DNA of 64,000 nt from positions 10,542,348 through 10,606,347 of the forward strand of contig CAIIXF020000006.1 in assembly GCA_903813345.2 (NCBI GenBank). Reading direction: 5' to 3'. How positions within the stretch are numbered: the first letter of the stretch is position 1; every line of letters begins with the position of its first letter. The position numbers and the translations under genes were made by a program. This DNA comes from Owenia fusiformis (lineage: Eukaryota > Annelida > Polychaeta > Sabellida > Oweniidae). The notes beneath the pieces were generated by a model that did not search any database, had not been told where the DNA came from, and was given only the letters and a program-made list of their open reading frames with translations. Below are positions 8,578 to 57,000 of this stretch, piece after piece.

Positions 8578-11500
8578 GAAAGGCAGGCGTAAAGAGAAGG
8601 ACTCTCCTTCACCACAAGCAGAAGAAACCAAACAATACTTAGGAGAAAACTTTGTGTCTCAGCGATCAATCAATGTTGACCTGTGCAGACTGTCAGAAAT
8701 CCCTGAACACCTAGACACAAATGAGTGGCTAGCTACAAATAGTAAGGATAATATACAGTTAATAATTGATTGATGAGTCTTGCATCTACACCCTTTACCC
8801 CCCTAGACTATGGAATTGAAATCCAGATATTAAGATGAAAATACAGTAGTTCACTTTTATTACTACTTTTGTTTTATCCTGCTTGAATAAGTTAATAGCG
8901 ATGCAAACCTCTTTAACTGCATGTCTAGGAGTCAAATTAAATGATTAATCACTAAAATTTGGGATCATTTCAAATTATCAATGAGTTTTTTCTGCAAAAA
9001 GATATTTAGTAAGAATGTGAAAAGCCCTCTTTTGTTTGTAAAAAACTGAAATCTACATGAGTACTATGCTGTCATTTTAATACTCATACTTATTTAGTTT
9101 CAACAACGTTGGAGCTAGGATCTCATATTTTTGATTAATTTATGTTAAACGGCAGTTGATTTCGATGCAGCCCCTTTTTGTGCTAATCTATCATGTATAT
9201 GTCTTGATGTAAGTGTATTGTGTTTGTGTACATTCAACTGCTATCAGAAATGACGTTTGAAATTAAACAGTTGCCAAGAATTCTGTTTGAGTGCCTCTCC
9301 TTGGAAACCATAGATTCTAAAGTGGTATTGTAATATGATTGTTCATTTCATGTTATCTTGTTCTCAAACTATTATAAATCACTTATATTTTTATTATGCT
9401 CATTTTTATGTTTCAACTTCCTGGTATAAAAGTAACCAATCAATGGCATCCTTGATATTGAGAATAAAACAACATCACCTGAACCTTTTTTGTTCATAAT
9501 TTATCAGTCTATGCTAGATACGTGTCATTGCGGTGAGTGGGGTGAGATGTTATTAAAATCCAGTCTCGACTTTGATAAGATAGGGCGTACTTGAGAACTG
9601 AAAGTTAAGGTTAAGAGAAAGTGGATTAGACATTCTATTATTAGGAGGCCCTTCCAAGGGGCCTCCTATAGTTTTTGTAGTTATTCTTCTTCTTCTTCTT
9701 CTTCTTCTTATTAGACTCCAGATGAAATCTGGAGTCTATTGTTTTCGTCAGTTTTCTTATTATTCTTTTTCTTCTTATTATTATTATTATTATTCTAAGC
9801 AAGTTTTCTCAATAACCGTAAGGTTTTCAGTAAAGTCAGTCATTTGGTCAATTTAGGTCCAGAATCTAGTTCCTCGGAAATTGGGTCAAATTTTTATCTA
9901 GGTCAAAGGTCAAGAACTAGGTCAAATCCAGTACTTTGTCACTTTTTTCGATTTTCTCGGTCGTCCTTCAATATTTTCGATCCGGGTTTTTTTCATTGTG
10001 TTCCTTATAAAAAAGTAGGAAACCTAGGGTCGATTTAGTTTTTTGATATCTCAAACCGATTTCGAGATATCAGTGTCCGAAAACGAGGTCCAAAAAAAAG
10101 TTCTCCGAATCAAATGTCCAGGATATTATTCTTATAGGATATTTTCTCAGGATTCCGAATCTGAAAACAAAATTTGGATCTGACTTCCGGTTCGGAAGTT
10201 ATGGCGTTTTGAAAACCCAAAAATCGCTAAATTTGGTGCCTATGTTAAGTCAATGGGAAAAAATATTTTTTTGAAGTGAAAAATACGGAATATAGACTGA
10301 GTTCAGCTTCATATAATCAAAGCCTTTAAAAGAAGGGGACCTCAAAAGCCATCTAGCTTCACAATTTTGACACCGAAATGCCTAGGTCAAAATCTAGGTC
10401 AAATTCATAGGTTTTTCTTATTTTTTCGATTCTGACACTACACTTTAATTATATTCTTCGAAATTGTGTATACATGTAGCCAAGAATATGCTAATAGTGT
10501 TAGCCTTTTGCCGTCAGAAAGTATTTTGACCCACTTTTGAGATATGGTGTCCGAAAAGTAGGTCAAAATAAAAAGTTCTCCAAATTGAATATATGAGTTA
10601 TGAATTAAGGGTAGAATTCTGTCAGGAATCCGAATCTGCAAACCAAATGTCGATCCGACTTCAGGTTCGGAAGTTATGGCGTGTCCGAAAAGTAGGTCAA
10701 AATAAAAAGTTCTTCAAATTGAATATATGAGTTATGAATTAAGGGTAGAATTCTGTCAGGAATTCGAATCTGCAAACTAAATTTCGATCCGACTTCCGGT
10801 TCGGAAGAAATGGTGTGTCCGAAAAGTAGGTCAAAATAAAAAATCTCCAAATTTAACGTATGAGTTATGAATTAGGGGTAGAATTTTGTCAGGAATCCGA
10901 ATCTGCAAACCAAATTTCGATCCGACTTCCGGTTCGGAAGTGATAGCGTTTTGAAATTTTGAGAAAAATCGATCTGATGGTATCCTGATAGAAAGTCAAG
11001 AGTAGAGAAGAAAATATTGAAAAATTCATCCATCCTTCCTATCTCATCCTACCCTATCCTTCCTATCTATCCTTCCTTCATATCTTTTCCTTCCTATCCT
11101 TCCTATCCTATCCTATCCTTTCTTCCTATTCTATTCTATCCTATCCTTCTTTCTTATTCTATCCTATCGTTCTTTCCTATTCTATCCTATCCTACCTTCC
11201 TATTTTATTTATCCATCTCTTTCTAGATGACTCAGCTTATTTTGGATGACTCGGCTTATTCTGGATGACTCGGCTAAAAAAAGTCTAGATCTGGAGTCTG
11301 AAATTGAACTTCGTTCAATTTCCAAAATCTAGTTATTATTCTTTTTAGCATTTTTTCTCCTACTTCTAGCTAGGTCTGAATTAACTCTTATATGCTCCTA
11401 CTAGGGACATGAGCTGGACTTGTCGGGAAATTAGTTCATATCTAGGTCAAGGTCAAAGGTCAAAATCTAGGTCAAATCTAAGTTTTTTTAAGTTTCTCAG

Positions 11501-14500
11501 ATTTTGTCCTCATACTTCATTATTTCTTGCGATGAATTAAAATGTAACTAGATATAAGCATTCTCTACAAATTGTCCACTATATGTACGCGTTAATTTTT
11601 TACCGTTTTTGAGATATTTGACGTCAAAAAACGGTCAAAAAAGGTCATTTTTCAACTTGCTTCAATTTGACCAATTCTTTTTTTAAAAAGCATCTACAAA
11701 GTCTCAGGAGTTCAAATCTGACCTCAGATTTGACCTTTGACCTTTAGTTGACCTTCTGTGACCTTCGAAAGGTCAAAAAAGTTGATTTTTCAAATTGATT
11801 TTTTGGATTCAAATTTAGGTCAGCTTAATCACAAAGGACATACTGAGCTCTGAAAAAGTAAAATTTTCAAGGTCAAAGGTCAAGGTCATCAAATAAGATA
11901 ACAAACTGTGCTATCTAAGTTTCTCAAAATTCGAGACTACAAATCAATATTTTTGGTTGAAAGTCAGAATATATATTCCTCTAGAGGTACTACACATATT
12001 AGCAATTGACTATCTATTAAAATTTTACACCAGTTTTGAGATATAAGAGCTCAAGAACTGAAAAAAGGTCAAATTTCGAAAATTTTGAAGGTCAAATTTC
12101 AACTTGCTTCAAATTGACCAAATGTTTTTTTAAAAAGCATCTACAAAGTCTCAGGAGTTCAAATTTGACCTCAGATTTGACCTTTGACCTTTACTTGACC
12201 TTCTGTGACCTTCGAAAGGTCAAAAATGTGGATTTTTCAGATTGATTTTTTGGATTCAAATTTAGGTCAGCTTAATCACTAAGGACATACTGAGCTCTGA
12301 AAAAGTACAATTTTTAAGGTCAAGGTCATCAAATTAGGTCACAAACTGTGCTATCTAAGTTTCTCAGAATTCAAGACTACAAATCAATATTTTTGATTGA
12401 AAGTCAGGATATATATTCCTCTAGAGGTACTTCACATATTAGGAATTGACTATCTATTAAAATTTTGCACCAGTTTTGAGATATAAGAGCTCAAGGACTG
12501 AAAAAAGGTCAAATTTCGAAAATTTTCAAGGTCAAATTTCAACTTGCTTCAAATTGACCAAATGTTTTTTTAAAAAGCATCTACAAAGTCTCAGGAGTTC
12601 AAATTTGACCTCAGATTTGAGCTTTGACCTTTACTTGACCTTCTGTGACCTTCGAAAGGTCAAAAATGTGGATTTTTCAAATTGACTTTTTGGATTCAAA
12701 TTTAAGTCAGCTTAATCACAAAAGACATACTGAGCTCTGAAAAAGTAAAATTTTCAAGGTCAAAGGTCAAGGTCATCAAATTAGGTGACAAACTGTGGTA
12801 TCTACGGGGCCTCCGTAAGATTGCTTGCAATCTTAGATCGTTAGATCTCTAGTTATCTCTATATAACATGTCTAACTTCTAGCTACTCTCACTTAATAAA
12901 TGCTAATTGCAGATATTCAAAAGATTGGGTTTGTTAGAGCATGAGTGCAACATTTTACATCACATTCTCTCACAAGATTGACTATATCAAGTCATACATA
13001 ATGTTTTTAAATTTGGAATATGATATTCACTTTTTGTATCTCTTGGTCTACAGAGTCTTGGTTATTACAACCTCATATCATCATTCATAGCACCAGATAA
13101 AAGTGACAAAATCATTGTTACTGGGTTGTAATAATCTTTTGTCATATCAGGGCATGTCGCATTGTATATCATTTTCCTTCTTGTAATTAGCATTAATGTC
13201 CCTATCATTGAATATATACCTGAGGTCTGTCATCAATATAGCCCGAGCTTGCTCCATTGACTTCCATACAATTGCTTCGCTAGGTATGTGAAACTATATT
13301 TACTTGTAATGATGTAGTAATCATAATCACTGATGTTTTTCTGCTTTCAGCCATATCATTCTTCGACCACCTGAACCTTCTGTATGGAGCCATCTCAGAG
13401 TTCTGTACCACAAGCAATTGCTCAGCAATGTCAGGCCCAGACAACATGTAAGTAGTCAATAACAGGTGGTAGGAGCATCTTGGATTTCCAAAGTATGATG
13501 TTTTTGAAAATCAAACTGGGAAACGAGTATGTGGTAGGAGAGGGCGATACAAGAAATAACTGAAGCAAAGTCATACCCATGCAACATTATCAAGCCAATC
13601 TTTTAAAATCCATGCATTTTTCTGTGACAATCTTAGTTATTTTCTTGTCAGAAATTAAGATGTCAGATATGGAGGTCATTGAAGTTCTTCTAATAAGATC
13701 CAGGGTTGAAAAGGGGGATGTTCTCATATTACTTGCTAATAAACATTAAAATCAAACAATTAAAATTAACCCTGTCAAACTCCTCATTGTAAAATTGTGA
13801 CAATATTTGAGAAAGTTACTTTCAACTCGGAACTAGTCCTTGCTACATATTATTTAATCTATTTGGTACAAGTCAGAACCAAATGATGGATTATCTTGAA
13901 CAAAAATGTTATTGATAAAACGAAAATGCTATGTTAGTCTCTTAAGTGTGAATTATCTTTCCACCTGAAAGCTCTCTGATGAATATAACATAGTAACTAT
14001 GGTCACTAAGGTATAATCATCAATGTAATAAGGCCTATCATTTCTGGGAATAAACACTAATGATACCATGCATATGTTTCTTTGAGTTGACTTAATGTTT
14101 ATTATGAATCGATATTTGTACTCAACTCTTATTGCGCAGTTCTCAGATAATGTTCCTAGAGTGTTTTTAGTTGTGTTTTACCTAATTTAGCTGTACTCTC
14201 CCATTAATGATCTCGAATACGCCCCTTGGGGTCTCTTTTCATGTTATTGATAAAATGTTGTATGATGTAATTTTGAATGATGTAATTTTGAATGAATGAA
14301 TTGAATTGAATTGAAATTGAAAAAAATTGAATTGAATTGAATCAGATATCTTGTCGCAGAAGCTGGCTGTTGTAGATATTAGAAGAGAAGACTGCACGAT
14401 TAAAAGAGCTCGTACTTGTATTTCCTTATCTGTTTAATTTGTGTTTTGCATGTATTATTTACTCAGAATTTAATTTTTTACTTTTTTATACTGCAGGCAA

Positions 14501-19500: not shown

Positions 19501-19920
19501 CGCATTGTCAAGTTTTCATGTCACTAATGATTTCACGCACAGACCACACAAACTGACAAATGTATTTTGCATGCAGCATACCATGTCAACTTCACAGTGT
19601 TACATTTAGTTTGTGTTACCATAGTTAGTAAGCTTATGTTGTGTAACATGGTTACCATGCTTCTATTGTACTATTATATGGTTACTAAGTATGTCTGATT
19701 TGTTGATCTTAAGAATGGTATATCAGGGATGACAGAGTGCATCCTTACAATAAAGGAGTCTATAAGGCTAAAAATTTCAAAAAATTTAATATATTTTATT
19801 TATTTTTTATTTGAACTATTAACATTTTTATCCAAGGATAAGGTTGAAAACAATCCATATTCAACAATACAAGCTGAGATATAATATCCATAGTATTTTA
19901 AAAATGTTATTGAGGTCCTT
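16582..19920 (+). other. MOB2 3'UTR and convergent intergenic DNA
   Basis: The MOB2 stop is followed by candidate poly(A) signal AATAAA at 16732-16737; the true 3' end could lie further on. Around 19085-19215 a GACACATTTGTAATA-like word recurs three times. The rest is AT-rich without exons I can support. ZIP A comes from the opposite direction, so this is a convergent 3'-3' boundary. Confidence 0.5.
16732..16737 (+). terminator. Candidate MOB2 poly(A) signal
   Basis: AATAAA lies about 150 bases after the MOB2 stop codon. It is the first canonical hexamer downstream, but usage is unproven. Confidence 0.5.
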
Positions 19921-19924
19921 CATT

Positions 19925-22900
19925 TCTTGAAGCTAACGTCAGTTGCATAAAGTGCTTTAATCATAATGGGAACCTGGCCTATTAGCAGATAATGTGACTT
20001 TCAAAAAGCACTATTATAATCATAATTGAGTCCTGAACTACTTCAAGCTAATGCCACTTGCATAAAGCACTATTATAATCATAATTGAGTCCTGAACTAC
20101 TTCAAGCTAATGTCACTTGCATAAAGCACTATTATAATCATAATTGAGTCCTGAACTACTTCAAGCTAATGTCACTTGCATAAAGCACTATTATAATCAT
20201 AATGGAGTCCTGAACTACTCCAAGCTAATGTCACTTGCATAAAGCACTATTATAATCATAATGGAGTCCTGAACTACTCCAAGCTAATGTCACTTGCATA
20301 AAGCACTATTATAATCATAATGGAGTCCTGAACTACTTCAAGCTAATGTCACTTGCATAAAGCGCTATTATAATCATAATGGAGTCCTGAACTACTTCAA
20401 GCTTATGTCACTTGCATAAAGCACTATTATAATCATAATGGAGTCCTGAACTACTCCAAGCTAATGTCACTTGCATAAAGCGCTATTATAATCATAATGG
20501 AGTCCTGAACTACTCCAAGCTAATGTCACTTGCATAAAGCACTATTATAATCATAATGAAGTCCTGAACTACTCCAAGCTAATGTCACTTGCATAAAGCG
20601 CTATTATAATCATAATGGAGTCCTGAACTACTCCAAGCTAATGTCACTTGCATAAAGCACTATTATAATCACAATGGAGTCCTGAACTACTTCAAGCTAA
20701 TGTCACTTGCATAAAGTGCTATTATAATCATAATTGAGTCCTGTACTACTCCAAGCTAATGTCACTTGCATTAAGCGCTATTATAATCATAATTGAGTCC
20801 TGAACTACTCCAAGCTAATGTCACTTGCATTAAGCGCTATTATAATCATAATTGAGTCCTGAACTACTCCAAGCTAATGTCACTTGCATAAAGCACTATT
20901 ATAATCATAATGGAGTCCTGAACTACTTCAAGCTAATGTCACTTGCATAAAGTGCTATTATAATCATAATTGAGTCCTGTACTACTCCAAGCTAATGTCA
21001 CTTGCATTAAGCGCTATTATAATCATAATTGAGTCCTGAACTACTCCAAGCTAATGTCACTTGCATTAAGCGCTATTATAATCATAATTGAGTCCTGAAC
21101 TACTCCAAGCTAATGTCACTTGCATAAAGCACTATTATAATCATAATTGAGTCCTGAACTACTCCAAGCTAATGTCACTTGCATAAAGCACTATAATTAT
21201 CATAATGGAGTCCTGAACTACTTCAAGCTAATGTCACTTGCATAAAGCACTATTATAATCATAATGGAGTCCTGAACTACTCCAAGCTAATGTCACTTGC
21301 ATAAAGCGCTATTATAATCATAATGGAGTCCTGAACTACTCCAAGCTAATGTCACTTGCATAAAGCACTATTATAATCATAATGAAGTCCTGAACTACTC
21401 CAAGCTAATGTCACTTGCATAAAGCGCTATTATAATCATAATGGAGTCCTGAACTACTCCAAGCTAATGTCACTTGCATAAAGCGCTATTATAATCATAA
21501 TGGAGTCCTGAACTACTCCAAGCTAATGTCACTTGCATAAAGTGCTATTATAATCACAATGGAGTCCTGAACTACTTCAAGCTAATGTCACTTGCATAAA
21601 GTGCTATTATAATCATAATTGAGTCCTGTACTACTCCAAGCTAATGTCACTTGCATAAAGTGCTATTATAATCACAATGGAGTCCTGAACTACTCCAAGC
21701 TAATGTCACTTGCATAAAGCGCTATTATAATCATAATGGAGTCCTGAACTACTCCAAGCTAATGTCACTTGCATAAAGCACTATTATAATCATAATGAAG
21801 TCCTGAACTACTCCAAGCTAATGTCACTTGCATAAAGCGCTATTATAATCATAATGGAGTCCTGAACTACTCCAAGCTAATGTCACTTGCATAAAGCACT
21901 ATTATAATCACAATGGAGTCCTGAACTACTTCAAGCTAATGTCACTTGCATAAAGTGCTATTATAATCATAATTGAGTCCTGTACTACTCCAAGCTAATG
22001 TCACTTGCATTAAGCGCTATTATAATCATAATTGAGTCCTGAACTACTCCAAGCTAATGTCACTTGCATTAAGCGCTATTATAATCATAATTGAGTCCTG
22101 AACTACTCCAAGCTAATGTCACTTGCATAAAGCACTATTATAATCATAATTGAGTCCTGAACTACTCCAAGCTAATGTCACTTGCATAAAGCACTATAAT
22201 TATCATAATGGAGTCCTGAACTACTTCAAGCTAATGTCACTTGCATAAAGCACTATTATAATCATAATGGAGTCCTGAACTACTCCAAGCTAATGTCACT
22301 TGCATAAAGCGCTATTATAATCATAATGGAGTCCTGAACTACTCCAAGCTAATGTCACTTGCATAAAGCACTATTATAATCATAATGAAGTCCTGAACTA
22401 CTCCAAGCTAATGTCACTTGCATAAAGCGCTATTATAATCATAATGGAGTCCTGAACTACTCCAAGCTAATGTCACTTGCATAAAGCGCTATTATAATCA
22501 TAATGGAGTCCTGAACTACTCCAAGCTAATGTCACTTGCATAAAGTGCTATTATAATCACAATGGAGTCCTGAACTACTTCAAGCTAATGTCACTTGCAT
22601 AAAGTGCTATTATAATCATAATTGAGTCCTGTACTACTCCAAGCTAATGTCACTTGCATTAAGCGCTATTATAATCATAATTGAGTCCTGAACTACTCCA
22701 AGCTAATGTCACTTGCATTAAGCGCTATTATAATCATAATTGAGTCCTGAACTACTCCAAGCTAATGTCACTTGCATAAAGCACTATTATAATCATAATT
22801 GAGTCCTGAACTACTCCAAGCTAATGTAACTTGCATAAAGCACTATAATTATCATAATGGAGTCCTGAACTACTTCAAGCTAATGTGACTTGCATAAAGC

Positions 22901-23511
22901 ACTATTATATAATCATAATTGAGTCCTGTACTACTCCAAGCTAATGTCACTTGCATAAAGCACTATTATAATCATAATTGAGTCCTGTACTACTCCAAGC
23001 TAATGTCACTTGCATAAAGCACTATTATATAATCATAATTGAGTCCTGTACTACTCCAAGCTAATGTCACTTGCATAAAGCGCTATTATAATCATAATGG
23101 AGTCCTGAACTACTTCAAGCTAATGTGACTTGCAAAAAGCGCTATTATAATCATAATTGAGTCCTGTACTACTCCAAGCTAATGTCACTTGCAAAAAGCG
23201 CTATTATAATCATAATTGAGTCCTGAACTACTTCAAGCTAATGTCACTTGCATAAAGCGCTATTATAATCATAATTGAGTCCTGTACTACTCCAAGCTAA
23301 TGTCACTTGCATAAAGCACTATTATAATCATAATGGAGTCCTGAACTACTCCAAGCTAATGTCACTTGCATAGAGCGCTATTATAATCATAATTGAGTCC
23401 TGAACTACTCCAAGCTAATGTCACTTGCATAAAGCGCTATTATAATCATAATTGAGTCCTGTAGTACTCCAAGCTAATGTCACTTGCATAGAGTACTGCT
23501 TTATTTATAGT
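19925..23511 (-). repeat. 59-bp tandem array derived from the ZIP A terminal codons (about 60 units)
   Basis: The period is exactly 59 (for example, successive units at 20041 and 20100). Read on the minus strand, each unit is ATTATG...GAGTAG plus 11 bases: the codons for IMIIIVLYASDISLE and a stop, then TTCAGGACTCC. The ZIP A last exon ends in the same 16 codons (IMIIVALYASDISFE and stop) followed by TTCTGGACTCC at 23512-23570, which is unit zero of the array. Units lie immediately downstream of the ZIP A stop. A few units are 61 bases (about 22905 and 23025). The leftmost unit, near 19925, is degenerate. Units also combine into higher-order repeats. Confidence 0.95.
23500..23505 (-). terminator. 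Candidate ZIP A poly(A) signal inside the first repeat unit
   Basis: AATAAA on the minus strand lies 18-23 bases past the ZIP A stop. It is in the repeat unit nearest the gene; the bulk of the array lacks it (units have ATAATA there). ZIP B has the same hexamer at the same distance (34206-34211). Confidence 0.5.
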
Positions 23512-23522
23512 GGAGTCCAGAA

Positions 23523-26500
23523 CTACTCAAAACTAATGTCACTTGCATAAAGTGCCACAATAATCATAATGGAATAACCAGCCAAGATTCCTAGATTTTG
23601 GAGAGCAAATATCTTCAGTTGTCCTTTCACTGTCTTTTCATCATCCACTTTTTCACATATCTCCGGCAACTGTAATTATACAAAAATGGATTTAACTCTT
23701 CAAAGGATAGGCCTATTCATTTTGGATTCTATTAAGCAAAATCAAGAAATACTGATTGATAGTGTATTACAGTTAGAACATGTTGAACATAATGAAGAAC
23801 ACAGGTGGGGTTGGTGAAAAACTGAGATGCTGTTTCTATAATTAGTTCTAGACTGTACTGATCATAAATCATGGGTAAGTGATAGAATAGTGATGTCTCA
23901 TAGGACATGAAAAAAATCTCCATGGGAAAATAACATGGAAAATTTTATTTCCACTTTCTAATTTTCCTGCATCAAAATTATTCTTCATGTGGATAGATAA
24001 ATTAAAATAAATTAAAATGAGTCAGGAATAAATATATGGAGATTTCTCATATGATTATGTTTACAGGTGTTAGAACAATTTGTGGTTGATAATAAAGGGA
24101 TCATCTATAATTTTGAGGCATTGTAGAACTCAACTAATAGAACTAATGAAAATAGCATCTCAAAGTTATACAACTTTAAAGTATATCAATATTGAATCTA
24201 CTTAGTGTTCGTTATGCCATCTATGACACACTCACTGTTTTCATATTTCTGAGAAATAGCACATTGTATAGATGCACAGGGTTCTATGTTACATACCATA
24301 TCTACAAGGCCAATGTAGAGGAAAATCCCAGCTGCCAATGCTAGTATCCATGATGTAGCATCAGTGAGTTCCCCCACTAGTATCCCCATTGTGAGGCCCA
24401 GGTAGCACATAGTGCCTGCTAGTACAGTGTATAATGCAGCTTGTTTCACACTCATACCAGCATTTACTAAGATAGCAAAGTCACCTGAAATGAAATCAAA
24501 GGAAGACATGGAGAGATGGAGAAGGGGGAAATGGTAGAGATGTATCAGTGGGCCCAAATTTTGAAAGATTAAGGCCCATTTTTTGTCAAATTATGCCCAA
24601 AAAGGACCGCCAAATTAAATACAGGGTGTCAAATAAGTCTGTTCTCCCCCCTTAACTTTTTTATCTTTTAATTTATCATACATTCCCATATATCATTGTG
24701 AAGCTTATGGAAAATGCTGATCACCCTCAAAACATCAATCATAAACTCCTCCTAATAAAATTGCTACAATGTTTCTTGTAAGGTTGTAGTTGACCTTTGA
24801 TTACGTCAAAACAAGTAATATTACCAGGTAATAGTGATTGAAAAGTGAATATGATACTGCAGTGACAATGCCAACATTGGGTGATTTTGATGTTTCTCAA
24901 TATTCTACAGAGTAAAATGTGTTACATTCAGGGGAGCTTTTGAAGCAGGGTCATCTTTCATTAAAAAATAGTTGATAACAGCCAAAGTTAAACGTTCTGT
25001 ATGATTTAAACGGGATCATATCCTTGTAGAATTGAGGCCATCCGGGCTGCTTTGGGAGACATACAGACTATTAAAAAAGTGAAATATGGACATCACTAAA
25101 AATACTCTAAAAATTTGGGAATTTAACCAATAGCTCTGAAATTTGGTGTGTGATCAGCAAATTGAATTCCCTTTAAGATGGTATATACCAACCCTATGTT
25201 ATTTCTGAAATAAAAAACTTAAGGGGGGAGAACAGACTTATTTGACGCCCTGTAGAAGGCAACATGTTCAATATCCCCAAAAAACGCCAAATTAAGTAGC
25301 GCCAAGATTAAAGACAAATACAGTACTTAAAATGCCAAACTCACCAACTTTGTGTGGTACATGTTCACATATGATACACACAGATAGACCCACTCCTGTG
25401 AGAATGCTCTGAGCAAAGCCTGCTCCTACTGCTATCCCATCTACAAAGTTATGCAGGGCATCCCCCAGTATAAGCACCCAGGCTACTGAATCTACTTGCT
25501 CCTTGCGAAGAGACTTCATTCCTTCTGGCACTGCCATCTTCTTCAACAAATATTAAAGTACAATTACTGAGTTACAAAAGGGAAAACTCAGAGTACTGAT
25601 AAGCACAACTGGTTGCAAGAAAACAAACTCCATCAACGATTTAACACACACAAAAAAAGTCAAATGACTGCACTACGACAAAATGAGTATTTTTCAATAA
25701 CACAACTTGTGAGTGAAAATGCTTTTAGACAATTTAACCTCCAGAAAGACATTTGTTATTCAATCAACTAAACTTTGAAGATTATCTTGCCCTTAAGTTG
25801 TCTGTATGTTCATAGTATTTTCTGAAACCAGATGATTTTGGCGTTTTTAATGCCTCTGTAATGTAAACATCAATATCATGAAGTGTCTTGATGGAAAGTT
25901 ATGATAGTCTGACGGCCTCAACAGCTCAGCCAGCCGAAGGAGGTATTCCAATGCACAATTTGTAAACAATTTAACACAAAGTAGTATGGCATTGGGACAT
26001 CTCCATGACTGGGGACAGACCTCCTGTGGTGTTTGTTTATGGAAGAAAAGTTAGAATCTTCCATCTCAGAAGAAAGTACGTATTTTGCCTCACCAAAAAG
26101 AGTATTCCGAGGAGGATATCGTTCAATTCTGAGATGGAGGATTCTACAATGTGCTGAGATTTAGAATCATATAAATAGAAAGGGAAAAGGTGATTTGACA
26201 GAATTTTAGAAAAGCTATTGAAGAATGAAGTTATGAAGTGGTTATAAAGTATTAAAGAGAAATTGTGAAATTATAGAAAATTGAAAATAAGAATTTTAGA
26301 CTGAAATAATAAAGAAGGAAAGACAATAAAATAATTTAGTTTTATGTTGAGGGAGTTTCGGAATATAAGAGAGAAGGGTCAAGACGGACATACTACATCG
26401 AAATATTTTAGAATTCATACTTTATCCTGTTCTCTGTTTTGCCTAATAGGTTCAAGAGAATTCATGTGATTTTGTTCATTTTTCAAATGTTGCACATTGT

Positions 26501-33347: not shown

Positions 33348-33954
33348 ACACCAAGACATGTTTCTCTCTTCAATAAAAGAAACTGTATTTAAATGTTCAT
33401 GATTTTACAACAATTTTTTAAACCACATTGAGATGTAATTTTGTATAGATTTCAAATTTCATATATTGGTTTTTGGTTATTTCATGAAAACATACATACT
33501 TCTATTTGCATCTAATCGGTTGTTTTCATTTTCCCATGAGAATAATCATAAATTTTCAATGGTAGTAACAAGCCATTCGAGGAACAAGGATTTACAAGTA
33601 CTTCAACTTTTACACGACTCAATTTGCATTTTAACTAGTGTTGGATCATGACTTTGCAAAAAGGAACATATTTTAAGAAAACCAATAAAATATATTGGAC
33701 AATAAAATGTAATGTCTTCATGAACTAAAACAAGGTATTAACATGCAAAATGTCACAACCTGCCATTTCTTACTGACTCCGAACGCAGAATGCTCGATGC
33801 CGCCAATGGCTATCACAAAAAATGGAGACCATAATAATATGTCAACACTTTTGCTGTTGACATAATTATGTTCTGTTTTATTGATTTCATTTACAGCCCC
33901 TTAGTCTTGAACTCTTAGTAGCACTATTACTGTGAGAAAAAATGTTTTGAATTT

Positions 33955-34228
33955 TTTTAAAAGCACTTGCATAAGCAGTATTCATAATTGAGTTCAAGAC
34001 TTCTTGAAGCTAATCTAACTTGGATAGAGTGCTGCTTTAATCTTAATGGAGTCCTGGACTACTTATACTTAATGTCACTTGCGCTGCTTTATTTATACTG
34101 TAGTTTTGGACTACTCATAGTTAATGTCACTTGCATAGAGTGATGCTTTATTTAAGCTGGAGTCCTGTACTACTCAAAACTAATGTCACTTGCATAGACT
34201 ACTGCTTTATTTATAGTTGAGTCCAGAA
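33955..34228 (-). repeat. About five decayed copies of the ZIP-tail repeat downstream of ZIP B
   Basis: Between 33955 and the ZIP B stop the words CTAATGTCACTTGCAT and GAGTCC(T/A)G recur about every 53-59 bases. Three units carry TTTATTTA, giving AATAAA on the coding strand. These match the 59-bp unit next to ZIP A but are more diverged from each other. Confidence 0.85.
34206..34211 (-). terminator. Candidate ZIP B poly(A) signal
   Basis: AATAAA on the minus strand lies 18-23 bases past the ZIP B stop, the same spacing as in ZIP A. Further copies lie in the next two repeat units. Confidence 0.5.
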
Positions 34229-37200
34229 CTACTCAAAACTAATGTCACTTGCATACAGTGCCACAATAATCATAATGGAATAACCAGCCAAGATTCCTAG
34301 ATTTTGGAGAGCAAATATCTTCAGTTGTCCTTTCACTGTTTTTTCAGCATCCACTTTCTCACTTACTTCAGGCAGCTGCAACAGACAACATATAGCCTAA
34401 GAGCATTATAATGACAAAATGTTACCAGCTCCTGGAGAGTCAAGCAAATGCATAAAAAGTGTAAGAATCTGTTACAGATACCATGAGTCACAAAAATGGT
34501 TGGCTATTACAATATGTAACCACTTCTTAGTGATGACTACATGTGACAAAGTCAATAAACCAGATATTTAAATGTGCTGTACTTTCTAGTTCAAATAAGT
34601 CAGACATTTTTTTGGGCTTTGGAGAATGAGGCCTTGGGATGTGACCCAGTGACACACAGATTACAGGCATTACATGCTAATCTCTGCATATAGGCTTAAG
34701 ATAAATAACTGAAAAACATGAAAAATGACTGAAAATGAATAAAAGATTTGATATAAAAAGTCAAAAGTCTCTACCATGTCAACAAGTCCAATATAGAGGA
34801 AGATCCCTCCAGCAAATGCCAGTATCCATGTTGTTGCGTTGGCCAATTCACCAACCACAACTCCCACTGCAAAACCTAAGTAGTTCATAATACCAGGCAG
34901 CAGGGTGTATAGAACAGCTTGTTTCAAACTCATCCCCGCATTTACCAAGATCGCAAAATCCCCTAAAAATAATAAACCACACTATTTTTGCACTGCAGCT
35001 TTTGGAGAATTTCTAAACACTCTTGATATATGTTTTTTATGTAATCCTACTTGTACTTTGTACAATAATATAATTAAATTAATATTATTGGTATATTTCT
35101 ATATTAGATCATAAATTAGGATGCTGGGGTTTTGTTTCATTCCGATTTGTTGTATCATTATTATTCCCCTTTCTTACCTCTCGTCTATTGCGATGCTGTT
35201 ACAATGTTGCAATCATTCCCATTTAATTAATGATTATAACTAATATCCTTCATAATATTTAATAATTTAATTCAACAAGTAAGACAAGTCAAGAATGCAC
35301 TCACCAACTTTATGAGGAACATGTTCACATATCATACAGACAGAGAGTCCAACACCAGTGAGTACACTCTGAGAGAAACCTGCCCCTATAGCTATGCCAT
35401 CCACGAAGTTATGTAGGATATCCCCAAGTACCAACACCCAGGCAACTGTGTCAATTTCTTTCTTTTGCATGTGCTTCAGATTTTTGGGCTTCTTTAACTT
35501 TTTGTCCTGTTAAATGAGATATATTGTAATATTAATAGGAATTTGGGTATTTGGCTGTTTTACTAAATAAATGAGCCCTTTTTGCACGTTTTACAAAAAT
35601 ATGAATTAAATTTTGCTTGAAGCAGTTTTAGTTGCCAAATGTTTTGTTTCTTGATTCAAAAAATATAATCCCCAAGTATGTAAATTCACCTCAGCAACAT
35701 CATCCAATGTAAACTTCACCTTTGGAACCTCTGTGATAGACGTCATTTTGGTCTCAATGCTGTAATCTGATTGGCTCTCTAATAGCTTGGCAGAGGAGGA
35801 ACCATTCCCATGAGGCATGAAAATGATATCATTATCACTGCTTATACTTGGTACTGACTTATAGTCATGGGGATTGTGGTTCTTCTAAAAAATAAATGTG
35901 ACAACATACTGACAACACATGCATGTATGTATTGACAAATATAAGACATTAACATGACATCCAACCTGATAAATCATTCCACGTGGTTACAAAGGTTTAG
36001 GGTCAGAGAGAGTCCATAATAATAGCATAAATAAAAGGTTTATGATTGCCTCAATAAAATTAACATTTGGAAGGCAATCACTGGTTTTTAATTTCATTAA
36101 AACAATAAACATGACAAAATATGCAATAAAATTTACTGTGTACTCAAGGATGTTATATAAAAAATGTTCTTTTAGTATATTGATTGATGAAAATAGTCCT
36201 AAAACTCCTAAAGTGTCATCAAAAAGTACTAATGCAATATTTGAATATATAGTGCTTAGTCATAATTCTTTGGTAGAGGACAACATGTTTTACCATCTGC
36301 ATATCATAAAGAGTACTAGTATTTTAATGATTGTAAACATTTTCATCAATATTTTAATCATGTTTCAAAAAATATACTTACTTGTTTAGCATGTTTCACA
36401 ATTTTTATGATTCGCTCGAAGATAAAGAGAAAGTATAAACCACCAGCAACAAAAGATAATTTCCAATAGAATTCCTTGGTCTCGATATGATGTGACAACA
36501 TAAGAGCCTGAAAATGAAAAACAAACATTTAAAATGTATTTATTTATTCATGTCCAAAGCCTTCCCATATAAGGTACATGTACTATATATACGTATTGTA
36601 TATCACAGAATAAATCAAAAAACATTAAAAAACAACAAACATATATGTACTGAGTTGATATGAATAATTGTCAAAAGAATTCATAGAGAACGACTTAAGA
36701 TTTAGTACAATGAAATAAGCAATGATATTGAATTGGAAATGAAGTGAGATATCTTTCCATACCTCTGGTATGAGAAATAAGAGGCCCATGCCAGTGAGGA
36801 CTCCAATAGCAAGGGAGACCATTGCCATGAGAAGAATGTCATAGATACGAGGGTTGGCCACACAAATGAATATAAGACACCCAAGAAGTCCTGAGCCAAC
36901 AACCGCAGTAATGCATAGCAAGCCATAGCCCCATACTGAAAAATAAAAGTGTGGATTTTAAAAAAAGAAATATCAGTTCCGCAATATTCACAAGTTCAAA
37001 ATGTATAAAGTAACATAATTAAATGGTATGTTTTAGTTTGCAATACAGTCACATGAATATATTGTGCTTTTTTAAAAGAGGGCATCTGTAACTATAACAA
37101 AATTAACTAATTTCAACCTGACGAGTTTTATTAGCTGCAGATACAAACTGAGCAAAGAATGATATGAAACATGTAACAAATCTTAGTATACCTTCTCCCT

Positions 37201-39232: not shown

Positions 39233-40786
39233 AACAAGAACACAAATGTGTACAAAATGTCCCCACCAATGGGTGATCCCATGAAATGGTTATCCTGAAA
39301 ATGAGTAGACAAGACTTTACCAACACAATTTTAATTGATCCGTCACACAGTTAACTAGAAAACATGTAAACAAGACTTTACAGACAAGATTTTAGGATGG
39401 AAAATCCAAAATGGCTGCCTTGACATTTACCCAGAATGTCAAAAAACTAATCTGTCTGTAGATTTTCATACTAAGAATCATCCCTGAAAATATGACATTG
39501 ATCTACCAAATGGTTCACCTGAAAACGCGTAGACAAGACTTTACAGACAAGATTTTAGGACAGAAAATCCAAAATGGCTGCCATGACATTTACACAGAAT
39601 GCCAAAAAACTAATAATCAGATGTAGATTTTCACACTAAGAATCATCCCTGAAAATTTGGAATTGATCTACCAAACGGTTCACCTAAAAACGCGTAGACA
39701 AGACTTTACAGGGAAGATTTTAAGATGGAAAATCCAAAATGGCTGCCTTGACATTTATCCAGAATGCCAAAAAACTAATCAGATCTAGATTTTCATACTA
39801 AGAATCATCCCTAAAAATTTGAAATTGATATCCAGAACTGTTCACCTGGAAATGCATAGACAAGACTTTACAGACAAGATTTTAGGACAGAAAATCCAAA
39901 ATGGCTGCCTTGACATTTGCCCAGAATGCCAAAAAACTAATCAATTCTACATTTTCATACTAAGAATCATCTCTGAAAATTTGAAATTGATCTACCAAAC
40001 GGTTCACCTAAAAACGCGTAGACAAGACTTTACAGACAAGATTTTAGGACGGAAAATCCAAAATGGCTGCCTTGACATTTACCCAGAATGCCAAAAAACA
40101 AATCAGATCTAGATTTTTATACTAAGAATCATCCCTGAAAATTTGAAATTGATCCACCAAACGGTTCACCTGAAAACACATAGACAAGACTTCACAGACA
40201 AGATTTTAGGACGGAAAAATCCAAAATGGCCGACAATAAAAAAGTGATTATGTGTTTTTGCTGATTTCTTCTTACAAAATTATCACATATTACTACTGTT
40301 AACAATAACATAGGCTTTTACAACAAAGTAGATCTGAAATTATTTATAAAGCTACTAAATAGTTAAAGTATGAAAACTCAAAAACACCATTCAATATGAT
40401 ACAAAGTATTATCGTGTGCTAACTTTTCTTAAGACATTCAAAATGGCTGACATGACTGAGCTAACAGGTCCAAAACCTAATCAGATCTAGAATGAAGTGA
40501 GCTGAACAAGATGTTAAAGTTTTAAAAGCAACTGTGAAGCCGTTTTTCTTAAAGTTTGCAGACAAGGATTTTAGCATTTGACTTCAAAATGGCCGACAGG
40601 AAGTAGGTATTGAGTTAAAATTTTTTCATCCACATCTGTATGCACTCATAAGTTATCCCTGAAAATTTGAAGGTGATATCTGTAGCGGTTTTGGAGAAAA
40701 CTCCCGGACGTACGGACAGACGGACGGACGGACAGACGGACGCGCCTAGGCCGACAATATGGCCCCACACTATGTGGTGGGGACAT
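39233..40786 (+). mobile_element. TGTCCCCACCA-TIR element, copy 1, with ~162-bp internal repeats
   Basis: Ends ATGTCCCCACCA (39257-39268) and TGGTGGGGACAT (40775-40786) are perfect inverted repeats. About 25 further bases to the left (ACAAGAACACAAA) are shared with copy 2. The interior has about six tandem units of 161-165 bases, each with AGACTTTACAGACAAGATTT and AATCCAAAATGGCTGCC. A unique tail follows, ending in a GGAC microsatellite and GGCCCCACACTATG. There is no transposase. The open frame 39819-40112 is two of these units read through. Confidence 0.85.
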
Positions 40787-43296: not shown

Positions 43297-45272
43297 TACA
43301 AGAACACAAAAGTGTACAACATGTCCCCACCAATGAAGAGACAAGATTTTAAAGACAGCAACCTTAAAATCTACCAAGCTTCCCAAAAATGTAACAATCA
43401 GGTGTTATATTTCATACCACAAAACATACCTAAAAATTATAGACAAGATTTTAGGACGGAAAATCCAAAATGGCTGCCTTGACATTTATCCAGAACGCCA
43501 AAAAACTAATCAGATCTAGATTTTCATACTAAGAATCATCCCTGAAAATTTGAAATTGATCGACCAAACAGTTCAGCTGAAAATGCGCAGACAAGACTTT
43601 ACAGACAAGATTTTAAGACGGAAAATCCAAAATGGCTGCCTTGACATTTACGCAGAACGCCAAAAAACTAATCAGATCTAGATTTTCATACTAAGAATCA
43701 TCCCTGAAAATGTGAAATTGATCTACCAAACGGTTCAGCTGAAAACGCGCAGACAAGACTTTACAGACAAGATTTTAGGACAGAAAATCCAAAATGGCTG
43801 CCTTGACATTTACCCAGAACGCCAAAAACCTAATCAGATCTAGATTTTCATACTAAGAATCATCCCTGAAAATGTGAAATTGATCTACCAAACGGTTCAG
43901 CTGAAAACGCGAAGACAAGACTTTACAGACAAGATTTTAGGACGGAAAATCCAAAATGGCTGCCTTGACTGAATATTCAGAACACCAAAAAACTAATCAG
44001 ATCTAGATTTTCATACTAAAAATTATCCCTGAAAATTTGAAATTGATCGACCAAACGGTTCAGCTGAAAACGCGCAGACAAGACTTTACAGACAAGATTT
44101 TAGGACGGAAAATCCAAAATGGCTGCCTTGACATTTATCTAGAATGCCAAAAAACTAATCAGATCTAGATTTTCATACTAAGAATCATCCCTGAAAATGT
44201 GAAATTGATCTACCAAACTGTTCAGCTGAAAATGCGCAGACAAGACTTTACAGACAGGATTTTAGGACGGAAAATCCAAAATGGCTGCCTTGACATTTAC
44301 CCAGAACGCCAAAAACCTAATCAGATCTAGATTTTCATACTAAGAATCATCCCTGAAAATGTGAAATTGATCTACCAAACGGTTCAGCTGAAAACGCGCA
44401 GACAAGACTTTACAGACAAGATTTTAAGACGGAAAATCCAAAATGGCTGCCTTGACATTTACCCAGAACGCCAAAAAACTAATCAGATCTAGATTTTCAT
44501 ACTAAGAATCATCCCTGAAAATGTGAAATTGATCTACCAAACTGTTCAGCTGAAAATGCGCAGACAAGACTTTACAGACAAGATTTTAGGATGGAAAATC
44601 CAAAATGGCTGCCTTGACATTTACCCAGAACGCCAAAAACCTAATCAGATCTAGATTTTCATACTAAGAATCATCCCTGAAAATGTGAAATTGATCTACC
44701 AAACGGTTCAGCTGAAAACGCGCAGACAAGACTTTACAGATAAGATTTGAGGACAGAAAAATCCAAAATGGCCGACAACAAAAAAGTGATTATGAGTTTT
44801 TGCTGATTTCCTTTTACAAAATTGTCACATATAACCACTGTTAACAATAACATAGGCTTTTACAACAAAGTACACCTGAAATTATTTATAAAGCTACAAA
44901 ATATTTAAAGTATGAAAACTCAAAAACACCATTCAATATGACACAAAGTATTATCGCGCGCTAACTTTTCTTAAGATATTCAAAATGGCTGACATGACTG
45001 AGCTAACAGGTCCAAAACCTAATCAGATGTAGAATGAAGTGAGCTGAACAAGATATTAACGTTTTAAAAGCAACTGTGAAGCTGTTTTTCTTTAAGTTTG
45101 CAGACAAGGATTTTAGCATTTGACTTCAAAATGGCCGACAGGAAGTAGATATAGAGTTAAAAAATTTTCATCCACATCTGTATGTACTCATTAGTTACCC
45201 CTGAAAATTTGAAGGTGATATCTGTAGCGGTTTAGGAGAAAACTGCCGGACGTACGGACGTACGGACGGACG

Positions 45273-48013: not shown

Positions 48014-51000
48014 TCACTCAAAGCTGATATCTCCAGCGAACAGGGCAACAATAATCATGATGCCGTAGCCAATCAGAATGCCAACATTCTGTATGATGAA
48101 AATTTTGATCTTCTCCCTCAAGGAATCTTCCTCCTCAGCTTGTTCACTGATCTCTGGTAACTGCAATATTAAATAAATGAATATAGTTCAAAGAGCAAGG
48201 TTAAGAACTGGATCTCACCAGTAGAGTGACATCTATTTTTAAATACAGTACAAAATGGCACCTGTATTTCATTGTGGACTTTCTCTTCCAACTTGACTTT
48301 GAAAAATGATCATTTTGAAAAAGATAGGATTGACCTACCATATCAACAAGGGCGATATAGAGGAATATTCCCCCTGCTATGGCCAACAGCCAGGTAGTAG
48401 CATCAGTGAGTTCTCCAACTAGAATACCAACTACCAGACCTAGATAATTCATTATCCCTGTGAGGAGGGTGTAGACGACTGCCATACGAAGACTCATCCC
48501 TGCATTCAGCAAGATGGCAAAATCACCTGTAAAAAGTAAATCAATAAATGCAGTGGGTTTAAATGAATTTCTGACAAAAGGCAAATTGAATGAAAAAAAA
48601 CAACAGGCTAATTATTGAAAATTATCATTTTAAGATGTAAATGATTCTGGTAAAAATGACTGGGAGAAATTGCTGCTGATGAAACTCTGACATTAATATA
48701 TAAAATAGAAATACACTTTGGGGCTAGTTGGGACAACAAACAAAATAAAACATACTAAATGAGAATATCAAGATTTATAAATGAACCAATTGGATGGAAT
48801 CCACATAACCATTCCGCAAGACCACACTTACATAGGAGTTTTGTGTTTCAAACTTTGAGACTCAATACAAAACAAAAGATGAGTAAATACCCAATTACAA
48901 CCTACCTATCTTATGAGGTACATGTTCACACATGATACACACAGCCAGACCTACACCAGTGAGGATACTTTGTGCAAAGCCTGCTCCTATAGTGACCCCA
49001 TCTACAAAGTTGTGCATGGCATCTCCCAGAATCAGCACCCAGGCTACAGTGTCTATCTCATCCTTCTCAAGAGACTTGATTCCTTTCTTCTCATCTACCT
49101 CCGTATCATCAACTTCCTAAAATATTGAGAAATCACATTAAATGTATCTCCAAGCTAGTCCTCTATAAATACAGGCAAATAAATGATTATAATTATAAGC
49201 TCTGTGGTGCTCCACCTGTGTAATGCTTTCCCGAACATTAACACAACAAAATGTCAGCACTTGGTAAATTATTGTAAAATGTCAATTGTTACAGACAACA
49301 TTTTTTATCTATAAGTTTTAGAAGTGAACCTTTAAAGTTACTATCTTAAAACAAGCTGCTCCTCTGGGTGTAAAAGGGAAAAGTTCCTCGGGGTTTATGC
49401 CCCCCCCTTCTATATTACACTGGATATGTTTTCAAAGGGGGATATCTCACCATTTTTTTCACATCACCATTGGCACCATTTGGAACTTGTATTGTGATTT
49501 CAGGTACCATTGTGGTCATTGTGGCAAAGCTGGCTTCTGATTGGTTATGATTCACAAGCCTCTGTGTGACATCACCATTGCTAGGCACCTCTACGAACTT
49601 GTTCTTCTTCTTCTAAAAAATATTAAAAATCGTTATGGATAAACCCTTCAACATCTAGTGATTTAAAGATAATGCAAGTTTAAGTGTTTCAACCTTCATC
49701 AAAAAGTGGAATATAGATTTCACAGATTAACGAGGAAAAGTAATAATCATCAGCTTTCCAAAAGCAAAGTAAAATCAGAGTACATAATAGAGAGATTAAG
49801 CAACACTATTTTTTACAATGTAAACCGTAAACGGGAAGGCATCTGCAGGTTTTTTTCAGGGCATGACGTCATATTAATCTACTTGTTTCCCCAGTTTATG
49901 TTCATCGCAATGTAAGAAATCAAAGTCTAGGTAGGTGGTTCCATAAAGAATTTAGAGAACTTTATCAAGCTCAATCGAGATAGATATGATTATAAGTCAA
50001 ATGCATCAATATGTTTGACACAAATCTGTGTATATCGCGAGACCATTTGTGTCCAATCTAATCAAATATTGAGCACCAAGGCGACCATTTTGTATGTAAA
50101 ATCTCCTGAGATTACATACATGGCGATTGCTCACATGTCAACTCATTTAAAATCCACAATACATATTGTGTTTCTTCAATCAATTGACCCTGTCCTGTTA
50201 TATCTTGTAAGATTCAAAAATCATAAACACTGTCAGACTATAAAACATCTCCTTTGTTAAACACTTTCATCAGTTTGTCATTAGAATAATGTTTTTATAC
50301 TTTTAAAGTAGAAAACGGAACATAAAGGTCGCAAGCAAAAAGAAAAGGCCATTTTGAGGTTTATGTTTGCTCAGTATCTAAAGTGCTTAGCTTAAAGCAC
50401 TTTTGTTAATAGAACGTAAATGGGAATGTATTGGTTTACGTTTGCAGTTCACGTCATAAAAAATCGTCTTGCTTAACCTCTCTATTAAAACTTCTTTGAC
50501 ATAATTAATGTAGACCATTGATGACTACTTTCTATTTTGAATTCCACATACCTGTTTTGCATGCTTAATCAGCTTGATGACTCTCTCAAATATAAAGAGG
50601 AAATATAGGCCTCCAGCAACACAGGTCAGCTTCCATATAAACTCAGTGGAGCCATGGAACAAATGAGGTAGACCTAGTGCCTGTAATTAAACATTTTCTG
50701 AATAGATGTACATGGACTACAAAAGAGAAAGAAAAAGAAAAAGCAAGACATTTGATTTTCATAATTTTTCTTTTCTGGTTATTGCATGTAATGTGCATGC
50801 CAATTTAGTTTTATGGGAAAATTAATTTGTATGAAAATACAAAGGTATTATACGCTATCACATTAAAAAAACCATTCCGAGATCACTCAATAACAAGCTT
50901 GAATGGAGATAGATTTTAATATATCAGCTGAAAAAAATTGGTTCTAAATGAAAGCAAATGCATGTTAAAGGAAATGTACAACATTTATTATTAAATTATC

Positions 51001-54000: not shown

Positions 54001-57000
54001 GTGATTCTCCGTAGTCTACAAAATACAATTTAATTTTAAAAGTACTCTTCTGTTTGTTCAACCCATCTTGGATTTCCAAGGTATGATATTTTCTATCCTC
54101 CTAAACAGGTGTCCAGAATCCGTACCTCCTTCTTCCCCCTGCTATAACCAATTTGGAAGTGCCCTATTAAACTGAATCATGTGATCTAATTATGCGCGAT
54201 GACTTATACACGATTCCTGTCGCAGTGTTGCAACAGCCATTCAGTTAATAATCGGGGAAATGCTAACTGCTTATCGCAGGGGGTTAAAAGAAAGAAGTAT
54301 TCTGGATTTTGAAGCCCTGTGATCGGAGGATGGATATTTTCATACCTTGGAATATCAGGCTAAAATTTCTGCCCAAAACCCTATAATTTTATATTTAATT
54401 AATATATTAATTATATTTAATCGTTTATATAAAATCGTTTATAGCGCCACCTGGAGGCCATGACAAATCATGTATAATCCTGTACTTTACAGGAACCGAG
54501 CGCTTTTTAGCGTATGCGCCCATCGGAGAGCCGACGAAATTAGAAAAAGGTTGTGTGATAAACGGTCCTGCTTTACGACCTATTTTCAAATCATTGAGTA
54601 TATTAGCCTCCACGGCTTCGCTATATGTTTGTGTTGATTTCCAATTTTTATGAATTCTTGGACCCCGAGGTCCTGTGTAGCCAAGATTAACTCCAAATGT
54701 ACCACCCTGTATTATATTATTTACAAATTCACGATCAGGATGAGATTTCAACTTATTTTCGAAATATATAACATTCAAAGGATTATAGGGACTTATCTCT
54801 GTCTTACTTTGAACAATCACATTTGGCGTATGGCAACAGGCCAACTTTGCAATTTTTGCAGACGTGTTTTCTAAAACAACGATTTCCGAAGGTACATTCT
54901 CCAGTTTGGAATTTGTTACAAATTTCTCCACTAATATTTCCTGTGCCTTTCGGTTTCTCATTTTTCTCCGCCGTCTCCACCTTATTCGTCTCGAGAAATG
55001 GACATTTAGACACTTGATGATCTCCTTTACACCTGTAACACTTAATGGCAACATGTTTGACTGCAGATGCGTCTAATATAGTGGTATATAAGAATGTATC
55101 CAAATTACCAAACGCAAATGATTTTGCGGCCCCTAATTTCAGTCTAAAACGGATGTCATATTGTGATACAGCTGACCATTGAAATTTCTTGTCGCATTCC
55201 TGAATGTGTGCTCTATATGTTCTCAGATCAGAATAGGCGCTGGGGTTGTGCTCCATAATAATCATTTCATAGACATTCCATGCTGTATTCCATGATAAAA
55301 ATGATTGTACTTGTGTTTGTTTGTTTTTCTTTTGTAATTTGAGTTGACCGTTATCCGAACATAATACTTGTTCATTTTGCCATTGATTGTCAACTGATTG
55401 ATGATGATATAGGTTTGTTGGGAGCAAATCCACCAAATTCACGTACTCACCAGCAATTATTTTATTGGTAACTTTAACTGGCACCCCCATTGTACAGCCT
55501 TCGTAGGAAACCCTATTATCGTTCACTGGTGGAATTGTATCAGGGGTTGGGTTGGATTGTTGAGGTGCATTTTGTGCTGTGGCCCCTTGTACTGTTGGAA
55601 CAACCCCCATATTAGGGTCAGGGAGGTTACGCTGTTGTATTATACCTTCCATTAATTCACGAAGGTTATCCTGACCTTCTTTCAGATTTGATGTTACCAT
55701 TGATAGGTTCGAAATTTGGTCATTCATTGTCATTATTGCATTAGTTATCCAAGACGCTGATGGTTGATTATCACTTACGATCCCTGATGACGTGTCAGTC
55801 GAATCTGGTGTTTCAATTTTTGACTGGGCGTTTCCCTCTGTCTGATAATTCGTACATTTCGGGCCATACGGTCCGTTATGTCCCCTGACCGTGTTACCAC
55901 AAGTGCTGCAACACCTTGGCTTAGCTCCTTGCGTTTCTATATCACTATTAGTATCCATTATACGGTTCTTCAAAAACTTCAAAAAAGCTTTACTCAACTA
56001 TGACTAAGTGTAAATCGAATGAACATACGCATGCGCTAATAATCAGTTATAGTAAGATAATAAAGATGTCGCTATGCTATTAAAAACTATTTACTTTGTA
56101 AATAATCATTAATTTGTCATAGATTGAGGATTCTGATGAATGAGATATCATCTTATCCAGCCTACATTATGCTAATATCTTATATATTAGGGAAATAGAA
56201 GCTGAGCAGTCAACCTCATTAGTAGTCAATTAAGGGCCAATAATTATAGTTTAAAAGGAGTCTGACCAATGAGATTTAAGAGTAAAATGAACAAATCATC
56301 TGATTGTGCGCTGGATTTAACGTGCACTGCTGGATTTAACATGTACCAATCAGATTGAAAATCAAACTGGGAAATGAGTACATGTATGTGTTCAACCAGG
56401 TAGACTTCAAATTTAAAACTTATATGATCATGAACACATTCAATAAATCAAATGATAAGAATTGAATACTGATATTCATTATACATGTACTAGGTTTAAC
56501 CCTCAGCAAATTATGTGAAAAGATACAAAAGTTAGACGTGCATTAAACACAACTGAACGAGGCATTTTATAATTGATAATTTCCAAGAATACAGTGACAA
56601 GAAAAATGAATAATAATATTTATAGGAATAAAATATTATGAATTAATTCAAAACTATTTCTGAGTGGTTTCTTCCATCTCTTGTGCTTTTTTATTATTCA
56701 TATTTTGCAATTAGCATTTTTCTCCATTAAAATGTCTTATCGCTCGCTGTAAAGGGAAATGTATGATTGTATGTTAATGTCATAAAATATAGTCAGCAAT
56801 GAAATTCAAGAAATGTTGCATGTAAGTTTTATCGTATAATATTGTCAACAGCTGGAAGGCAGCGTCATCTCACTTTGCTTGTCTGCACATTTCCGGCCAG
56901 ACAAAATGCTCGACTTGATTTGAAAACAATCATAACAGGTGTTTGTTTTTACAAAAATTGTAAATGTCAATGATCATGCTTTCTTTGACTTGATTTAATT

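Follow-up and report, generated by a model that had tools for sequence, protein, structure and literature searches.

A 59-bp minisatellite derived from the stop-spanning end of a ZIP transporter exon in Owenia fusiformis, and gene conversion between the two genes that carry it

How does a transporter gene come to be followed, directly 3' of its stop codon, by about 60 copies of its own coding end, and do these copies serve any purpose? The question is raised by a 64,000-nucleotide window from the annelid Owenia fusiformis (C6:10542348-10606347, C6 being contig CAIIXF020000006.1), which is the whole stretch analyzed here. The window holds the genes called ZIP A, ZIP B, and ZIP C below. Two exons preceding the last exon of ZIP A match the Pfam Zip domain (PF02535) with 45 and 42 bits, above the cut-off of 35.1, by which ZIP A is classed as a predicted ZIP (SLC39) transporter; its final exon, on the minus strand, reads LPEICEKVDDEKTVKGQLKIFALQNLGILAGYSIMIIVALYASDISFE. 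The search space for the genome was the 498-Mb assembly, that is, one individual of one species. We consider it probable that a segment spanning the stop codon was amplified in place to give a neutral minisatellite private to the locus, and that a separate conversion took place between ZIP A and ZIP B.

Tandem Repeats Finder (TRF) reports a minus-strand array at 19930-23573, with a period of 59, 61.7 copies, and 94% matches. Alignment of the units resolves 62 of them: unit 0 is the exon end itself, and units 1-61 follow without gaps from 23514 to 19930, the last being partial. The repeat unit is most aptly given as 16 codons (SIMIIVALYASDISFE), a stop codon, and 8 nt. The array begins directly 3' of the ZIP A stop and, with its units of this length arranged head to tail, is a minisatellite (units of about 10-100 bp). 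A preliminary description, made from the letters of the window, had put about 60 units directly 3' of the stop, in agreement with the 61 array units counted here. It was also right that the unit contains codons and the stop and that a copy lies at the exon end, but the 3' tail is better given as 8 nt than as 11, and the exon copy, placed by it at 23512-23570, is here set at 23515-23573.

Of the 58 core units (2-59), two are 61 bp long and were excluded; the other 56, all of the full 59 bp, gave a consensus to which their mean identity is 96.7%. The core is near-identical, and units 1, 60, and 61 have diverged further; a homogeneous core with diverged edges is the pattern predicted by unequal exchange. 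Within the core, 12 consecutive units (708 bp) are repeated exactly at a distance of 17 units (1003 bp), and self-similarity across lags 1-29 is highest at 17 units (0.967). The 17-unit recurrence marks a recent large duplication step, and the exactness of the 12-unit internal duplication suggests recent instability of the array. The array is not a coding minisatellite like those of SPANX-N2, SPANX-N3, and PRDM9, whose in-frame units add residues: the stop of the exon comes before it and a period of 59 is not divisible by 3, so its units add no residues to the protein. The features are located in Table 1.

Table 1. Positions in the window of the ZIP last exons, the arrays behind them, predicted poly(A) signals, and the conversion tract.
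Feature	Position	Strand	Remarks
ZIP A last coding exon	23523-23669	-	LPEICEKVDD...IMIIVALYASDISFE, 48 aa; stop TAG 23525-23523; from sequence reading and homology match
Unit 0, source 59-bp segment	23515-23573	-	16 codons, stop, 8 nt; unit alignment
Unit 1, first copy	23456-23514	-	TAG to TAC; AATAAA (23505-23500) in place of the ATG region of other units
Core array, units 2-59 (58 units)	20030-23455	-	unit alignment
Units 60 and 61, degenerate 3' edge	19930-20029	-	
Distal poly(A) cluster just past the array	19795-19811	-	three AATAAA, at 19811, 19804, 19800
ZIP B last coding exon	34229-34375	-	stop 34231-34229; homology match
Short decayed 59-bp array behind ZIP B, units B1-B5	33951-34220	-	B3 is 52 bp; B5 is cut at 41 bp
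AATAAA in three successive ZIP B units	34088-34211	-	59 bp apart; first bases 34211, 34152, 34093
Recent gene-conversion tract	A 23474-23633, B 34180-34339	-	157/160 identical
ZIP C last exon	48014-48160	-	homologous C-terminus GIMIIVALFAGDISFE; no array downstream; negative control

That the exon supplied the unit rests on several comparisons. The array consensus agrees with unit 0, made up of the final exon end and its 3' flank, at 52 of 59 positions, and single array units match it at 81-88%. When the last 100 exon bases of ZIP A were aligned to the DNA downstream, the score was 68, against a maximum of 29 among 100 dinucleotide shuffles; the match is thus far above chance. As controls, last exons were drawn from the 8 places in the genome that resemble the ZIP A last exon (37 Zip matches are listed for the genome, counted exon by exon). 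None of the six controls, ZIP C and five others, has downstream copies above shuffles, with 31 to 91 of 100 shuffles reaching the score, and TRF found no 59-bp array in the stretches of these exons. Exon A and the array consensus differ at six coding sites; ZIP C has the base of the exon at three of these, that of the array at one, and neither at the remaining two. The homologous C-terminus of ZIP C is encoded without repeats, so the exon is the source of the array and not its product.

The unit is also confined to this locus as far as the searches reach. A 118-base query of the genome returned 33 matches, every one of them at either ZIP A or ZIP B. A 20-mer search allowing up to 2 mismatches returned 66, of which 61 fall at ZIP A, 3 at ZIP B (both figures count the exon copy), and one each on contigs C5 and C8, the last two with two mismatches. 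The same 20-mer pattern reversed had no match in the genome. As a control, part of a 162-bp repeat that also lies in the window had 137 matches listed on many contigs, 40 of 1266 first-look candidates having been scored. Since such searches can miss sequence, the absence of the unit elsewhere is strong rather than absolute; within their sensitivity, the unit is found only at ZIP A and ZIP B and does not behave as a dispersed satellite or mobile element. Both lines of evidence bear out the proposal in the preliminary description that the end of a coding exon was captured and then amplified where it lay. Neither of the outcomes that it had named as contrary, a match no better than chance and a satellite spread genome-wide away from ZIP genes, was found.

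Behind ZIP B, the 59-bp period recurs in a short, decayed array. Over 431 alignment columns running from the exon into the array, ZIP A and ZIP B are colinear (81.9%), and their last introns and 3' flanks give no alignment above 50 shuffles. It follows that the block common to the two genes is the exon end plus the array. On this colinearity and a few shared edge bases, a common ancestral array for ZIP A and ZIP B is likely. The preliminary description had passed over the ZIP B array, together with the poly(A) signal of unit 1, the 59-bp-spaced signals of ZIP B, and the conversion discussed next.

The near-identical tract spans the coding end and the first repeat of both ZIP A and ZIP B. In the coding part compared, 107 of 108 positions are identical, including 35 of 36 third positions. 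Just upstream (23671-23634, including two intron bases) agreement is 30/38, and five other exon blocks, with bounds taken from BLAST, are 71-81% identical (pooled 586/763), with third positions from 9/25 to 36/52; hand-set bounds for four of these five exons give 68-77%. Over 121 bases compared, 120 match; at the pooled rate, the binomial probability of this many or more is about 5e-13, sites being taken as independent and the tract having been chosen by eye. Local near-identity that includes silent sites, set between diverged flanks, is what defines interlocus gene conversion, and by this sequence pattern the tract is assigned to it. The sole change within its coding part (T at 23550 in A, G in B) looks new in ZIP B, as the T is kept in 55 of the 56 full-length ZIP A core units. 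As a separate observation, ZIP A and ZIP C agree at 81% in exons 25350-25524/48911-49085 and 27294-27392/50546-50644 and at 63-70% in three other exons compared between these genes; this may perhaps reflect an older conversion between A and C, the cluster then being a mosaic.

Might the array itself have brought the conversion about? We suggest, tentatively and as the less probable course, that the array may act as a homology bridge: ectopic pairing behind ZIP A and ZIP B would let conversion spill over the stop, so that the two coding ends evolve together. If so, a gene-made 'junk' minisatellite would steer the protein sequence of its own gene and of a neighbour. Should conversion of the ZIP coding ends in related species prove to be restricted to places that have the array, the array would count as driving coding evolution and not as a bystander.

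The poly(A) signals bear on whether the array is part of a messenger RNA (mRNA). In ZIP A (23505) and ZIP B (34211) alike, an AATAAA stands in the first repeat copy, 18 nt 3' of the stop. On the coding strand of the ZIP A array, AATAAA or ATTAAA occurs twice, in units 1 and 61, the latter being an ATTAAA at 19961 in the last array unit; neither motif is present in units 2-60. Because the AATAAA of unit 1 comes before the core array, most of the array probably lies outside a short mRNA. On the simplest reading of these signals, a short ZIP A mRNA would terminate within or close to unit 1, and the core array would be a termination zone; a long ZIP A isoform running through the array is possible.

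To summarize the proposed course of events, a 59-bp stop-spanning ZIP segment would have been tandemly duplicated in place and become a locus-private minisatellite. A short ancestral array would have come to sit behind both paralogues, and the unit just 3' of the stop may have gained a poly(A) signal that both genes are presumed to use. The ZIP B array would then have decayed, while slippage and unequal exchange, with the 17-unit higher-order step among their products, would have raised an inner unit of ZIP A to about 60 copies. The resulting array would have neither product nor selected function, being termination-zone DNA and occasionally a long 3' untranslated region (3'UTR). In a separate event, recent gene conversion made the coding ends of ZIP A and ZIP B near-identical. 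Possibly, neutral amplification has helped the two coding ends to evolve together.

Several observations weigh against this account. The distal AATAAA cluster lies just past the array, so that predicted signals stand on both sides of the core. Few derived bases are common to the 3' edge units of the ZIP A and ZIP B arrays. With kinship ignored, intact units number 51 among the 56 full-length core copies, where 45.0 +/- 2.8 would be expected, and the synonymous share of changes is above expectation in every setting tried, non-significantly. The count of 51/56 leans against neutrality, but the copies are not independent, and the same mutation is counted many times in it.

The first of these points would fit a functional 3'UTR, with read-through to 19811-19795 and a 3.5-kb repeat that adjusts the stability, location, or translation of the transcript, metal being one possible cue. 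In favor of this reading are the cluster directly beyond the array, the lack of either hexamer in units 2-60, and the position of the array on the sense strand of ZIP A. Against it, a canonical signal lies ahead of the core array in both paralogues, the ZIP B array is short and decayed, ATTTA is absent from the coding strand (one occurs on the opposite strand), no metal-response element (MRE; the MTF-1 site) core or Pumilio site is present on either strand, and a 236-nt stretch of four units folds no better than shuffled sequence (z = -0.69; 49 of 200 shuffles at least as good). We regard a functional 3'UTR as improbable. The preliminary description had raised both a transcribed 3'UTR and a decoy for regulators. 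As the main state, the former finds no support, an AATAAA lying ahead of the core array, and the distal cluster leaves room for a long isoform; the latter gains no support from the few motifs tried (MRE, Pumilio, ATTTA) nor from the four-unit fold.

Might the units instead be translated? Each was said to keep an ATG, a 14-codon frame, and a stop. This is true of 51 of the 61 array units and false of ten: five have GTG for ATG, two carry a 2-bp insertion, unit 1 lacks an ATG in place and has TAC for TAG, and units 60 and 61 are degenerate. The 56 full-length core units contain 9 nonsynonymous and 6 synonymous distinct changes, 1 change after the stop, and none that creates or removes a stop; stops created by insertion are found in the two excluded 61-bp units. 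The 6:9 ratio of synonymous to nonsynonymous changes gives no significant sign of selection on the 14-codon frame (two-sided p 0.10-0.23, or 0.18-0.36 when the neighboring changes at sites 12 and 15 are taken as one event), and the number of intact distinct unit types, 22 of 25, does not differ significantly from the 19.2 expected (P 0.12). It is thus very improbable that the units are micro open reading frames translated into MIII[AV]LYASDISLE, a hydrophobic peptide of 14 residues similar to the last transmembrane segment of the transporter. The frame kept in 51 of 61 units and the excess of intact core units speak for such a peptide, but five units have lost the ATG to GTG, and when changes or distinct types are counted the pattern is not significantly different from neutral; peptide function is rejected as the leading explanation on these tests, even though the kinship-blind count points the opposite way. 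An intact frame needs no selection to explain it, since it came with the exon and the array is homogeneous. Taken together, the non-significant frame tests, the ordinary fold, and the lack of motifs make it most likely that the array is neutral.

Strong purifying selection, in place of conversion, is likewise a very poor candidate for the near-identity of the ZIP A and ZIP B coding ends: the C-terminal transmembrane segment is indeed similar among the ZIPs found, but third codon positions agree at 35/36 against 9/25 to 36/52 in the five other blocks, and the near-identity runs beyond the stop into unit 1, which argues against protein-level selection as the sole cause. Least credible of all is an older satellite captured by the gene, the exon end being made of satellite; exon end and array are closely similar, as it requires, but we reject it since ZIP C favors the exon three to one where the coding sites differ, a homologous end free of repeats is seen in ZIP C and in other ZIPs, and the genome searches did not find the unit at other places.

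The ZIP A array belongs with gene-end minisatellites, a known kind. In primates, as described in part of PMC1831492, a 39-bp minisatellite at the 3' end of exon 2 is common to the SPANX-N paralogues, lying after the stop in SPANX-N1 and -N5 and in frame in -N2 and -N3, with 4-7 units in human. The likeness, as far as that portion of the article goes, is a gene-end minisatellite common to several paralogues and placed after the stop in some; in contrast to the 4-7 units, in frame in some paralogues, the ZIP A unit contains the stop, is not divisible by 3, and is present in about 60 units. Another minisatellite behind the stop of a transporter gene, with a unit of 40 bp, is the variable number tandem repeat (VNTR) of DAT1 (SLC6A3). 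It is located within the 3'UTR and has common alleles of 9 and 10 units, and the reporter evidence for a function of the repeat is mixed, the paper's own result being negative, according to the part of the source drawn on here (PMC549191). The placement within the 3'UTR and these common alleles set it apart from the ZIP A array. More generally, satellites could in theory arise from any sequence and are homogenized by unequal crossing-over and gene conversion (PMC5615363, in part). A local seed, a homogeneous core, and higher-order units are shared with satellites of local origin as portrayed in that excerpt, but the ZIP A seed is a stop-spanning coding end and its copies are found at one gene pair only. 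Gene conversion between tandem paralogues gives a short near-identical tract within otherwise diverged copies; here, the tract differs in that it ends in, and adjoins, an array derived from the converted exon.

What sets the ZIP A array apart from these systems is the stop codon within the unit, the poly(A) signal in the first copy, and the recent conversion of a flanking coding end between array-bearing genes. In the open-licence literature, judged mostly by titles, we found no stop-spanning exon-derived minisatellite and no such ZIP gene repeat, and the part of PMC6947457 that we draw on holds nothing about coding-exon seeds for satellites. The birth of a minisatellite can be read in a single window, from the source segment and first copies to a decayed sister array and an amplified one. 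The locus offers a system for testing whether gene-end repeats promote gene conversion into adjoining coding sequence and whether new poly(A) signals can arise through duplications that span a stop.

Other features of the window are as follows. The ZIP proteins have EHVPHK (25346-25522, 35306-35500, 48911-49085) at the position where LIV-1 ZIPs have HEXPHE, and the metal site may therefore be unusual. The minus strand has a 397-codon open frame (54807-55997) upstream of where the ZIP C exons were located (48-51 kb); its matches to CCCH zinc fingers and eIF3g are weak and below cut-off. A 440-bp unit is present in 2.6 tandem copies (93%) at 11641-12804. Between ZIP C and ZIP B, the genome-dispersed 162-bp tandem repeat occupies 39358-40230 and 43437-44772; the same set of matches to it occurs twice on contig C11 and again on C12, suggesting a recently moving element. 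Lastly, an element of about 1.5-1.6 kb flanks the ZIP cluster as two inverted copies about 50 kb apart (9701-11344 and 59751-61258), which are 88-90% identical and contain ATCCT/GGATA simple repeats.

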